A stretch of 12,575 nucleotides of DNA from Methanospirillum hungatei (GTDB lineage: Archaea > Halobacteriota > Methanomicrobia > Methanomicrobiales > Methanospirillaceae), in the NCBI RefSeq assembly GCF_020216685.1, contig NZ_JAIWNS010000151.1, forward strand, positions 1 to 12,575, given 5' to 3'. How positions within the stretch are numbered: position 1 is the first letter of the stretch; each line of letters starts with the position of its first letter. Below are positions 9,464 through 12,525 of this stretch, one piece after another. The position numbers were made by a program, and so were the translations under genes. The notes under the pieces are model-generated. The model saw nothing but the letters and a program-made list of their open reading frames with translations. It was not told the DNA's origin and did not search any database.

Positions 9464-10864
9464 ATGGAGTATTTATCGTATTGTGAAATGAACATGTATA
9501 AAACTCGGGTATGTATGGAATTCATGCAGAATAAAAAACACATTTATTTATCAGGTACTTTTAATCAGACTCAAAATACTACGCAGAACAGTTCTTTTGA
9601 CACTGTACCAATATGTTCAGCTTCAATTGAGGATGCTGTCAACCTGATACGACAAATTGCTCCGGATACGCAAATCGAAACCAGATATATTGATGAAGCC
9701 GATGGCTATACCCTGGGAGCTCCGGTTTTTTGCAGATATGATATTCCGGGTTTTGATCGCTCAACAAAAGACGGCTTTGCAGTCCGAGCTGAAGATACTA
9801 AAGATGCCACACCAGAAAACCCGATCCGGTTAACCTTTTCAGGATCGATACAGAACGGCTATTCACCTTCTCATATCCTCACGAAAGGGTCCTGTATGGG
9901 CATTACAACCGGGGGAGCATTACCAAATGGTTCAGATGCTGTTGTAATGTTGGAGTATGCTTGTTTTAAAGAAACATACGTGGAGATTTACTGCCCGGTG
10001 GTTCCGGGAGATAATGTCATCAGAAAGGATGAAGATGCGAAAGCAGGAGAAATTATCTTCCCTGAAGGAAAGATACTACGTCCCCAGGATATCGGAGTTC
10101 TTGCAGGATTTGGAATCTGTACTGTACAGGTCAGGGCCATGCCGGTTATTGGAATCCTTTCAACCGGGCCAGAACTTGTCCCTGCAGATGGGAGGCCTAA
10201 GAGAGGGGAAGTCAGAGAGACCAATTCATACCTTATTTCAGCATTGTGCAGAAAACTCGGAGCTCTGCCCAAACGGTATGGTATTGCCTGGGAGGGGATG
10301 GCTGATCTATCTAACATGCTTTGCACGGCTGTTTCAGAATGTGATGCAATCATTATCAGCGGGGGAAGCGCCCATGATGAGCGTGATCGTACGGCTGAAG
10401 TAATCTCACATTATGGATCTATCCTCTTGTCAGGTATGTCCATTTCTCCGAGGAAAAAGATGGTAATTGGAGCAATTCGAGGTAAACCGATTATTGGTCT
10501 GCCGGGTCACCCGGCATCAGTGTATTTGTTGTTATTGCTTGTGGTTTCAAATCTCATCCAGGCAATGAAAGGTTCTGTGACACAAGGCCTTTTAAAAGAA
10601 CACGCAATCGCAGGAGATGACATGAAAGCTCATCCCGATCGTGAGTATCACATCCCAGTACGGATTGACAATGGCTATGTCTTTTCATTAAGCCGGAAAG
10701 CAGGTCTTGTTAGTCTACTTACCCATTGCGACGGAATTGTCCATATCCCCCAGGGAAGCAGAGGAATTAAAAAGGGTGAACAGGTGGATGTCATGGATCT
10801 TACCATGATTCGATCACCTTTTCATATACATCCACATGATCAGTACGATGCAAAATTATTTTAA
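9464..10864 (+). CDS. moeA: MoeA paralogue 1, molybdopterin molybdenumtransferase-like
   Basis: MoeA inserts molybdate (or tungstate) into adenylylated molybdopterin. Visible MoeA segments: DIPGFDRSTKDGFAVRAEDT (93-112), TTGGALPNGSDAVVMLEY (148-165), RPQDIGVLAGFG (206-217), ILSTGPELVP (231-240), ISGGSAHDERDRT (298-310) with D308 in the place of a conserved acidic residue, and IIGLPGHPAS (343-352). The usual PGKP motif before that last segment reads SPRKKM (328-333), an atypical substitution. The C-terminal domain (about 390-445) is complete, with about 20 extra residues at the end. The N-terminal 50 residues are not part of the MoeA fold; Met 18 or Met 21 are alternative starts, but the TATA box position favours ATG 9464. 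The gene diverges from modA. Confidence 0.87.
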   Translation: MEYLSYCEMNMYKTRVCMEFMQNKKHIYLSGTFNQTQNTTQNSSFDTVPICSASIEDAVNLIRQIAPDTQIETRYIDEADGYTLGAPVFCRYDIPGFDRSTKDGFAVRAEDTKDATPENPIRLTFSGSIQNGYSPSHILTKGSCMGITTGGALPNGSDAVVMLEYACFKETYVEIYCPVVPGDNVIRKDEDAKAGEIIFPEGKILRPQDIGVLAGFGICTVQVRAMPVIGILSTGPELVPADGRPKRGEVRETNSYLISALCRKLGALPKRYGIAWEGMADLSNMLCTAVSECDAIIISGGSAHDERDRTAEVISHYGSILLSGMSISPRKKMVIGAIRGKPIIGLPGHPASVYLLLLLVVSNLIQAMKGSVTQGLLKEHAIAGDDMKAHPDREYHIPVRIDNGYVFSLSRKAGLVSLLTHCDGIVHIPQGSRGIKKGEQVDVMDLTMIRSPFHIHPHDQYDAKLF

Positions 10865-11005
10865 AAAAATGCAATTTATGGTGAGTTTAAAAAATTTGTT
10901 ATTTGAAGTACCCAAAAACGGTATCAAGTTAATCAAATTCATCATTTTCCCTTAAAATTAAATAAGTTAATTAAATCACAGATATCGTAAATGAAAATAA
11001 GTATT
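10865..11005. other. AT-rich spacer after the first moeA
   Basis: This stretch is very AT-rich and holds no convincing gene. It contains one reverse-strand copy of the spacer repeat found near fwdD (TTTATGGTGAG, 10876-10886). No clear terminator hairpin for moeA is seen; the A-rich end just after the stop is on the wrong strand for a T tract. Confidence 0.4.
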
Positions 11006-11013
11006 TTTAAATA
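11004..11013 (+). promoter_or_regulatory. TATA box of the candidate RNA / second moeA
   Basis: TTTTTAAATA at 11004-11013, preceded by a purine/A-rich BRE-like GAAAATAAG, is a near-consensus archaeal TATA box. It predicts a transcription start around 11033-11036, exactly where the first hairpin of the candidate RNA begins. Confidence 0.55.
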
Positions 11014-11034
11014 CTCTTTCTATCATATATGTGG

Positions 11035-11176
11035 TGCTGACTCTTGTCAGCAAAACTCGGTGCGGTCATCAGGTTACCTTGAGATCCAGTAATACCGATC
11101 GTGAGAAAGCTCCGAACCGGTTCCTGATGACCATTTCAATATAATTATGCCTCCTTAAAGGAGGTTTTCTAGTTTT
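11035..11176 (+). ncRNA. Candidate structured RNA upstream of the second moeA (small RNA or riboswitch)
   Basis: A 7-bp hairpin, TGCTGAC/GTCAGCA with a TCTT loop (11035-11052), is followed by a perfect 10-bp stem: GGTCATCAGG (11064-11073) with CCTGATGACC (11123-11132). This stem encloses 49 nt rich in short pairings, including the self-complementary AACCGGTT (11115-11122). TCGGT (11057-11061) could pair with ACCGA (11094-11098) as a pseudoknot. The segment is clearly GC-richer than both flanks and has a TATA box at the right distance upstream. It ends with a terminator-like hairpin. No tRNA, 5S, SRP or RNase P signature is seen, and I see no ACA box or proper C/D boxes. It could be a free small RNA or a leader controlling moeA. 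The Moco riboswitch consensus as I remember it does not match. Confidence 0.55.
11149..11176 (+). terminator. Hairpin plus T-rich tail between the RNA and moeA
   Basis: CCTCCT (11150-11155) pairs with AGGAGG (11159-11164) over a 3-nt loop, followed by TTTT, CTAG, TTTT. This is a compact intrinsic-terminator shape. The GGAGG arm resembles a ribosome binding site but no start codon follows at a usable distance, so termination or attenuation is more likely than translation control. Confidence 0.5.
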
Positions 11177-11223
11177 ATTTCGAATTGTAATAGTTAATTA
11201 TCAGGAAGAATAAGTTATTATTG

Positions 11224-12525
11224 ATGAACAGTACACTCGGGAAGATCATCTCCAGTCACCCCCATGGACCGGATACCGTATTGTCAGATACGGTACATGG
11301 ACATGATACTGGCTCAGGACTTGGGAAAGGGAATAAATTGAGAACCTTTCTTTCAGAAAAGGCAGAACCTTTTTTTGATGTTGTTACAATTGACGAAGCA
11401 GTCAGAACTGTAAGAAGCATTGCAAAACAGACCGGAACGGAGACGATTATGATTGATGAAGCTGAGGGTCGGGTTTTAGCCGAATCAATCATCACACAGG
11501 AGAATATTCCGGGATTTGACAGATCCTGGAAAGATGGATATGCTGTGATTGCACAGGACACATATCCAGCGAAAGAAAATTCTCCGGTCATCCTTTCTCT
11601 TTGTGGTTCAATTGCTATGGGAAAGTCAAAGAAGGGGCAGATTCAGTCAGGGGAATGTATGTATATTCCCACTGGTGGTCAGATGCCGGATGGTGCTGAT
11701 GCAGTCGTTATGATTGAATATGCAGAGCAGGTTGGTGATAGGGTCCTCATTCGCCAACCGGTTGTTGTCCGGGAGAACGTAATTGCAAAAGATGAAGATT
11801 TTCATGCAGGAACCGTTATTTACCCGGTCGCTTCGACACTCAGGCCACAGGATATCGGAGTTCTCGCTGCAATTGGGAAAACGCGGATTTCCGTCCGAAA
11901 AAATCCCCGAATCGCCATTATATCAACCGGGGTCGAACTGGTTCCTGCAGAGGCGATACCACGGACAGGTGAAGTTCGTGAGGTGAATTCGCACCTGATA
12001 TCTGTTTTCCTACGAAAACAGGGAGCAATCCCGGTCAGGTACGGAATCATCAGAGATAATCTTGATGAATTAAAAAGTACGATTGAAACCGCTTCCTCTG
12101 AATGCGATGCAGTCATCGTGAGCGGAGGCAGCTCCAAAGATCGGAATGATATCACCTTCAGGGCGATTGCATCACTTGGTAAAGTATTTGTGCATGGAAT
12201 TTCCATTGCTCCTGGAAAGCCTACCATTATCGGACAATGCGGAGATGTCCCGGTAATCGGTCTTCCAGGTCATCCGGTATCGACATTCATGGTAATGACT
12301 TTGGTTGCCGTTCATCTGATCCAGGCCATGAAAGGAGCACCTTGTCAGCATATTTACAAAAAGACTATAAAAATGGCGACGGACCTCAAGTCAGAAGGAG
12401 GCCGTGAGCAGTATATCCGGGTACGTATTGAAAACGATGAAGCTACACCGGTTCTTGGAAAATCAGGACTGTTAAATACTCTCCTCCATAGTGATGGAAT
12501 TATCCATATTCCGACAGGAAAGTAA
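11224..12525 (+). CDS. moeA: MoeA paralogue 2, molybdopterin molybdenumtransferase, C-terminally truncated
   Basis: This second MoeA (433 residues from ATG 11224) shares many blocks with the upstream copy: NIPGFDRSWKDGYAV, YIPTGGQMPDGADAVVMIEYA, LRPQDIGVLAAIG, IISTGVELVPAE, VSGGSSKDRNDIT and VIGLPGHPVS. Unlike the first copy it keeps the standard APGKPT motif (residues 329-334), so it looks the more orthodox enzyme. About 50 N-terminal residues precede the MoeA fold; TTG 11338, behind a GGGAAAGGGA purine stretch, is an alternative start. The frame ends at TAA 12523-12525 in the middle of the family's final IPxGxxGxxKGExVxV segment; the missing residues are encoded just downstream in the same frame. 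The gene is therefore probably disrupted by a nonsense change, or the stop is a sequencing error. Two MoeA copies in archaea have been proposed to divide Mo and W; that is inference here. Confidence 0.85.
   Translation: MNSTLGKIISSHPHGPDTVLSDTVHGHDTGSGLGKGNKLRTFLSEKAEPFFDVVTIDEAVRTVRSIAKQTGTETIMIDEAEGRVLAESIITQENIPGFDRSWKDGYAVIAQDTYPAKENSPVILSLCGSIAMGKSKKGQIQSGECMYIPTGGQMPDGADAVVMIEYAEQVGDRVLIRQPVVVRENVIAKDEDFHAGTVIYPVASTLRPQDIGVLAAIGKTRISVRKNPRIAIISTGVELVPAEAIPRTGEVREVNSHLISVFLRKQGAIPVRYGIIRDNLDELKSTIETASSECDAVIVSGGSSKDRNDITFRAIASLGKVFVHGISIAPGKPTIIGQCGDVPVIGLPGHPVSTFMVMTLVAVHLIQAMKGAPCQHIYKKTIKMATDLKSEGGREQYIRVRIENDEATPVLGKSGLLNTLLHSDGIIHIPTGK
11274..11295. repeat. Inverted repeat TACCGTAT-N6-ATACGGTA
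   Basis: Perfect 8-bp arms at 11274-11281 and 11288-11295 flank a 6-nt spacer. It lies inside the poorly conserved N-terminal reading of the second moeA. It could be an operator or a leader hairpin if translation really starts at TTG 11338. Confidence 0.35.

Follow-up and report, generated by a model that had tools for sequence, protein, structure and literature searches.

The window analysed here, a 12,575-nt stretch of DNA from Methanospirillum hungatei, contains fwdD, fwdB, fwdA and fwdC, two moeA genes and, on its minus strand, a Mo/W-type ABC transporter. Between the end of the first moeA ORF (moeA1, position 10864) and the ATG of the second (moeA2, position 11224), an initial annotation had singled out positions 11035–11176 as a compact candidate RNA with its own promoter and terminator-like hairpin, belonging either to a transcriptional riboswitch for Mo/W cofactor or a precursor, or to a free-standing small RNA. 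Which of the two it is, and what such an RNA would do at this place, is the question that the locus raises.

The comparison covers 12 Methanospirillum genomes, among them the window's species (G000) and its near twin (G003), and G012, from a neighbouring genus. The start codon of moeA2 was picked by conservation of N-terminal residues; its product scores under the NCBIfam curated cut-offs of the MoeA equivalogs and above that of the TIGR00177 domain model, and relatives were found at five loci (two in Methanospirillum, two in a Methanomicrobiales archaeon and one in a planctomycete, at 31% identity). The elements of the intergenic region and the gene downstream are as follows.

11006–11013, + strand: TATA-like box TTTAAATA of RNA1, 29–30 nt upstream of the 5′ hairpin in 7/7 genomes
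11035–11052, + strand: RNA1 5′ hairpin, TGCTGAC-N4-GTCAGCA, 7 bp (11035–11041/11046–11052), at the expected transcript start
11053–11063, + strand: RNA1 single-stranded linker, with AACTCGG at 11054–11060, invariant in 7/7 and repeating part of the moeA2 target
11064–11073, + strand: 5′ arm of the RNA1 10-bp stem, invariant in 7/7
11078–11100, + strand: RNA1 conserved internal strand CTTGAGATCCAGTAATACCGATC, exact (with two N) in 7/7 carriers
11103–11112, + strand: RNA1 apical hairpin with a 4-nt loop, its letters variable and its pairing kept
11123–11132, + strand: 3′ arm of the RNA1 10-bp stem, invariant in 7/7
11148–11159, + strand: RNA1 tail, TGYCTCYATCAC in relatives, where it pairs with el2, and TGCCTCCTTAAA in the window, where only TGCCTC remains
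11149–11176, + strand: RNA1 3′ end, with a 7-bp hairpin in the window's species and T-runs
11185–11202, + strand: moeA2 promoter-like element TTGTAATAGTTAATTATC, between the RNA1 T-run and moeA2
11224–12525, + strand: moeA2, molybdopterin molybdotransferase MoeA-like, passing domain model TIGR00177

All the features noted at 11035–11176 are present in the sequence, and the element is conserved in 7/12 Methanospirillum genomes. The conserved structured RNA, RNA1, spans window positions 11035–11133, with a length of about 100 nt plus a U-rich tail and a start near 11035. Folding of the noted stretch yields −47.9 kcal/mol (z = −3.74), and 0/200 dinucleotide shuffles are equally stable. The 7-bp 5′ hairpin and the perfect 10-bp stem around 49 nt lie where they had been placed, and the TATA-like box, 29 nt before the hairpin in the window, is kept in 7/7 carriers as TTTAAATA, TTTATATA, CATAAATA, CTTAAATA or ATTATATA, variants that were listed for the test after the sequences had been read. 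The description of the enclosed core as GC-rich holds only relative to its AT-rich flanks, its G+C content being 23/49. The exact 5′ palindrome, allowing a 3–6 nt spacer, occurs once in each of 6/12 genomes and always at RNA1; the remaining carrier, G011, has a G.U variant that falls outside this pattern. The internal strand CTTGAGATCCAGTAATACCGATC has no occurrence in the five non-carriers at up to three mismatches, and a single, unrelated three-mismatch site in G006. The possible pseudoknot UCGGU/ACCGA is invariant across carriers, so that covariation cannot argue for or against it.

The check among relatives called for by the initial annotation returned homologues of RNA1 in seven genomes by both blastn and covariance model. 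Over 61 genomes, blastn yields strong matches in these seven (E ≤ 1.1e-25), the next match lying at E 0.0017. The covariance model identifies one copy in each of 7/12 Methanospirillum genomes (E ≤ 5.5e-23), and a search of 232 genomes of the class (model R1) recovers the same seven carriers: G000, G003, G011, G006, G001, G010 and G009 (M. stamsii), which represent six lineages. Among 392 phylum-sampled genomes, matches at E ≤ 0.1 were confined to G000 and G009, and three weak model matches outside the genus (E 0.18–0.44) were dropped after their sequences had been read. A 20-nt RNA1 pattern matches one viral contig exactly, but the covariance model has no match there; a second pattern matched no viral contig, and plasmids returned no match. 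RNA1 is present in one branch of the genus, between two moeA genes and directly upstream of moeA2 in 7/7 carriers. The five genomes without a match are G002, G004, G005, G007 and G008; absence is weak evidence in G005, G007 and G002 because these genomes are incomplete (67%, 64% and 88%, respectively), unlike G004 and G008 (both 99%).

The alignment of the seven carriers has 71/104 invariant columns. At fourfold-degenerate third positions of the adjoining moeA2, distinct lineages share 34–56% identity, near saturation, and 5/152 fourfold codons are invariant in all seven carriers. Set against this divergence, the invariance of RNA1 indicates that selection maintains it. The covariation looked for at 11064–11073/11123–11132 is absent, since all 20 positions are invariant in 7/7. 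None of the 26 predicted pairs, and none of the 17 long-stem pairs, changed on both sides, and both long stems are invariant apart from one A-U to G.U change; spacing varies (a gap of 4 or 5 nt in the 5′ palindrome, and 49–52 nt between the 10-bp arms). The exception is the apical hairpin, in which a 4-nt loop and at least 3 bp are kept in 6/6 lineages by different pairs (GAG/CTC, GTGC/GCAC, TGTG/CACG, GTGCT/AGCAC); 0/20000 shuffled sets equal this, with allowed loop positions that were chosen after the sequences had been seen.

RNA1 does not match a known RNA class. Among 4227 Rfam families, Moco RNA included, there are seven matches in the window at E ≤ 5, all far below gathering and none over 11035–11176, and a search of 10990–11225 returned three matches at E ≤ 10, also far below gathering scores. 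Covarying stems of riboswitch type around an invariant core were not found, the small apical hairpin being the only element that varies with its pairing. ARAGORN has 0 tRNA or tmRNA hits in the window. H/ACA guides carry ACA after a stem and C/D guides have box C and box D flanking the guides; by eye, ATT, ATC or AAA follows the RNA1 stem, and TGATGA and CTGA sit within perfect stems. A peptide was likewise rejected, as one- and two-base length changes break every frame.

The signals around RNA1 resemble those of a separate transcript. A run of 4–7 T begins 30–34 nt past the 10-bp stem in 7/7 carriers. The terminator-like hairpin and T-rich tail that had been described are both found in the window, but only the T-run is general: read from the sequences, the hairpin before it is absent in G009 and G010. 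A poly-U stretch seems to be enough for termination in archaea (PMC7289017). At the level of sequence signals, RNA1 has its own promoter-like and end signals at conserved positions in 7/7. Although it adjoins moeA2, it is separated from that gene by a promoter-like element and what seems to be a leaderless start: TTAATTAT (TTAATCAT in G010) starts 29–30 nt before the ATG in 7/7, and no Shine-Dalgarno sequence was seen in the 75 nt upstream, from which we infer that the moeA2 mRNA is leaderless. Allowing up to two mismatches, elements like TTGTAATnGTTAATTATC (11185–11202) turn up elsewhere in the genus only at scattered positions, roughly as often as the reversed control pattern does. Inspection by eye of G004, G005 and G008, where RNA1 is missing, shows in the short moeA1–moeA2 spacer a related TGTAATTG...GTTATATC stretch and an ATG then GAACTCGGG; in G004, GATTGG replaces TGTAATTGG. 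Since moeA2 has a promoter-like element of its own and a similar upstream region where RNA1 is missing, RNA1 is best read as its own gene.

The strongest signal external to RNA1 is complementarity to another RNA, el2. The invariant ACTCGG of the RNA1 linker has seven sites in the window against 3.8 expected, a number that 16/200 shuffles reach, and el2 was reached through one such site with TGCCTCTATCACG nearby. Its elements, and its complementary site in moeA2, are these.

1311–1413, + strand: el2, upstream of fwdD, delimited by covariance model, its strand taken from G.U asymmetry
1341–1353, + strand: el2 site A, CGTGATAGAGGCA, the complement of the tail that RNA1 has in relatives
1376–1388, + strand: el2 apical loop and flank (seed), GATTTTCCCGAGT, complementary to moeA2 11235–11247
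11235–11247, + strand: el2-complementary site ACTCGGGAAGATC in the moeA2 mRNA, forming 13 contiguous bp with loop and flank of el2

el2 is a previously unreported RNA. The covariance model R2 detects it at E ≤ 3.5e-4 in 12/12 Methanospirillum genomes, though only in part in G002, and beyond the genus in G012 (E 8.8e-10); weak matches in G034, G225 and G053 (E 0.01–0.48) were dropped after reading the sequences. Its end lies 470–506 nt from fwdD in 9/9 genomes checked, a set that excludes G003, G006 and G007. Against Rfam there is no credible match, the region having two far-below-gathering matches at E ≤ 5. Across its three helices, 98.8% of 168 pair cells hold on the + strand and 89.9% on the − strand, the consensus energy being −41.1 and −26.9 kcal/mol, respectively. 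Eight further standard pair types are seen on + and two on −, because most changes read as G.U on + and as A.C on −. TATA boxes lie upstream of el2 on + in G004, G005, G007 and G008, as judged by eye, whereas RNA1-bearing genomes have only a weak TTAT-like element at that distance. Pair retention and energy, pair types and upstream TATA boxes make + the likely transcribed strand. Covariation within el2 is not above chance (95/500 column shuffles). A short frame on the minus strand was rejected as a peptide, since a deletion of one base throws it out of frame in G006 and G011.

Several further observations concern the surroundings of el2. Diverged second copies are found in G001 (L146 1501–1604, −), where the CCCGAGTT loop is retained, and in G010 (L147 1501–1602, +), which carries CCAGAGTT. 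The fwd genes have their own TATA-like box downstream of el2 in the five RNA1-bearing genomes examined by eye; at about 1735–1785 this box is followed by a conserved TTATCACGG, 8 nt of which are complementary to el2 CGTGATAG (with one G.U), a complementarity seen by eye in the RNA1-bearing branch. TTATCACGG could be a further el2 partner, or merely a promoter element. Direct repeats TCACCRAT..TCACCAT, also noted by eye, occur in the fwd–fmdE region (window ~1070, 1236–1256 and 1518–1540), are partly kept in relatives and look like operators of some regulator.

The el2 loop is complementary to the start of moeA2. Counted from the A of the moeA2 ATG, ACTCGGGAAGATC begins 11 nt downstream; its partner is el2 GATTTTCCCGAGT, and the match comprises 13 contiguous bp in G000, G001 and G009, 12 in G006, 11 in G011 and 9 in G010, with G003 like G000. 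Complementarity of the loop to the moeA2 start region, at 9–13 contiguous bp, is found in 9/9 genomes tested, including the RNA1-lacking G004, G005 and G008 (10 contiguous bp, CCCGAGTTCA). Shuffled moeA2 ends are as good in 0–19/1000 cases for the el2 loop in 7/7 RNA1-bearing genomes; with whole el2, shuffles as good number 22/300 for G009 and 0–3/300 for the other six. Within the window the moeA2 site is the best non-self site of the el2 loop (−21.8 vs −20.2 for the next), and its adjacent CTC GGG codons are two of the five invariant fourfold codons. The target is partly structured (mean unpaired 0.35–0.68 in six genomes).

In G004, G005 and G008 the site lies in a short frame of 34–39 codons that starts 108–112 nt before the assigned moeA2 ATG. 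This frame, MYSELG... (L044, L043 and L045, respectively), runs up to the moeA2 start; its letters resemble the MNxxLG of the other branch, where the N-terminal extension of moeA2 seems to correspond to it. The el2 loop CCCGAGTTC is retained in G002 and G007, but none of the four moeA loci examined there has a complementary site at a start, which implies different or undetected partners for el2 in these genomes. moeA1 and fmdE were dropped as targets because a start-proximal ACTCGG is not conserved (found after the start in 2/10 genomes and 4/7 loci). Among seven loci with sites like the moeA2 target that were read, six have the site in open frames and one (L154) just past a stop codon; those of L161 and L158 have one seed mismatch and lie about 22 codons past a possible start.

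RNA1 is complementary to el2 at two sites, collinear and antiparallel to the two sites of el2. Its tail forms 13–17 contiguous bp with el2 in G001, G006, G009, G010 and G011 (5/6 lineages), at −26.9 to −34.8 kcal/mol, and in each of these five lineages 0/500 shuffles are as good. A variable tail base Y is matched by an el2 base R (C-G in G001, G006 and G011, U-A in G009 and G010), a pattern that may go back to one evolutionary event. In G000 and G003 the tail has changed into a stronger hairpin and the pairing is lost (−10.5 kcal/mol, with 212 and 162 of 500 shuffles as good), so that only the 7-bp linker match remains there. That second match, of RNA1 AACTCGG with the el2 loop (7 bp, −10.4 kcal/mol), is present in 6/6 lineages and is not significant by itself, 13–77/500 shuffles being as good. 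The six lineages with RNA1 retain el2 site A, which has diverged in G004, G005 and G008. Tested against the five intact tails, el2 site A of RNA1-bearing genomes reaches −22.8 to −34.8 and that of G004, G005 and G008, without RNA1, −11.8 to −19.0, while G007 and G012, also without RNA1, are intermediate, down to −24.3 and −25.1 with some tails.

The RNA1–el2 complementarity, together with the match of the el2 loop to the moeA2 start, gives RNA1 and el2 the appearance of two components of a single switch, not of a metabolite sensor. What the computation shows is that the two RNAs are conserved, which strand of el2 is probably used and where the complementarities lie; the scheme that would best join these results has el2 as an antisense small RNA acting on moeA2 and RNA1 as its decoy, a tentative reading that we put slightly short of an even chance. 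el2 would be transcribed from the stretch preceding the fwd operon and would expose CCCGAGU in a 14-nt apical loop. This loop would base-pair with the mRNA around the moeA2 start, which in RNA1-bearing species means the opening codons of an apparently leaderless message, and so block initiation. RNA1 would be a free-standing small RNA whose likeliest job is to bind and neutralise el2: its single-stranded linker AACUCGG would serve as a copy of the moeA2 target and, in most carriers, its 3′ tail would invade the 5′ single strand and lower stem of el2 (GUGAURGAGGCA). Making RNA1 would thereby free moeA2. In the cell, this supposes that both RNAs are transcribed and bind one another, with el2 repressing moeA2, RNA1 relieving that repression and the balance possibly tied to Mo/W supply.

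The strongest caveats on this proposal are that tail pairing is lost in the window's species and that the most constrained strand of RNA1 lies outside the el2 pairing. The most conserved part, 11078–11100 with the invariant 10-bp stem, is not accounted for by el2 and may serve a ligand, a protein or some other target. A somewhat unlikely alternative, but one built on exactly this point, is that RNA1 uses the invariant CUUGAGAUCCA..AAUACCGAUC strand to act in trans on a different mRNA or on a protein, el2 complementarity being secondary; the retention of RNA1 in the window's species despite the lost tail pairing would fit it as well, while hybrids of RNA1 single-stranded segments, sought in the window only and so a weak point against it, are no better than those of shuffled segments (20 shuffles each). 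The same core enters a distinctly unlikely variant in which it binds Mo/W cofactor or a precursor, and ligand binding uncovers or masks both sites for el2; if that ligand-gated sponge were true, one archaeal RNA would sense the cofactor and set moeA2 output through el2, and possibly that of the fwd operon too, whose leader carries the 8-nt el2 complementarity in the RNA1-bearing branch.

That RNA1 is instead the 5′ leader of moeA2, a riboswitch or antisense-controlled attenuator starting at 11035 in which a ligand or el2 decides between an end at the T-run and read-through, we consider unlikely. Its position directly upstream of moeA2 in every carrier, an invariant unpaired core and possible pseudoknot that are aptamer-like, and the prospect of el2 acting on linker, tail and moeA2 start within one mRNA all suit a leader, but they are set against the conserved promoter-like element 29–30 nt before the ATG with no Shine-Dalgarno seen upstream, against a comparable upstream region and el2-complementary site in G004, G005 and G008 without RNA1, and against long stems that never covary and a terminator hairpin that is not conserved. 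The transcriptional-riboswitch layout first suggested for the locus loses its footing on the same grounds, namely the moeA2 element, the lack of stem covariation and the unconserved terminator hairpin, whereas the free-standing small RNA, offered as equally possible, gains from the TATA-like box at a fixed distance, the U-run end, strong conservation and the absence of an Rfam match. Highly improbable, finally, is that RNA1 and el2 are inverted repeats in DNA bound by a transcription factor: palindromic half-sites and the operator-like direct repeats of the fwd–fmdE region speak for it, but the spacing of both the 5′ palindrome and the 10-bp arms varies, the palindrome occurs once per genome, and changes in el2 keep pairing, as G.U, on one strand only.

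In bacteria, small-RNA sponges and decoys carry a copy of a small RNA's target site. RNA1, read as a decoy, would do likewise with the el2 target; it differs in being archaeal and, in most carriers, in adding a second, longer pairing to the el2 5′ region. In Methanosarcina mazei, sRNA162 acts on mRNAs via two distinct domains, and its unstructured linker masks a ribosome binding site (PMC3510493). By description only, our proposal is similar in having a methanogen small RNA act on mRNA, but in our case an apical loop would do the pairing, with a copy of the target on a second RNA. The riboswitch-controlled sponge RNAs EutX and Rli55 of Enterococcus and Listeria, with EutX sequestering a protein and a cobalamin aptamer providing control (PMC5821096), are again comparable by description only, as structured small RNAs that act in trans as sponges for a regulator of neighbouring genes, as proposed for RNA1; unlike EutX, RNA1 would capture an RNA and has no known ligand. 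The Moco RNA riboswitch, whose abstract lists bacterial groups and environmental DNA (PMC2408646), is also a conserved RNA adjoining Mo/W cofactor genes, but neither RNA1 nor el2 matches it or any other family in Rfam, and RNA1 seems unlike an mRNA leader. Judged by titles and the beginnings of abstracts, the open-access papers searched on small RNAs of archaea and methanogens contain no case of one archaeal small RNA decoying another.

The proposed el2/RNA1 model makes exact, testable base-pair predictions in a genus that has cultured members. If true, an archaeon would possess a circuit of two RNAs, one serving as decoy for the other, that links cofactor insertion (moeA) with the Mo/W enzyme of methane formation (fwd).
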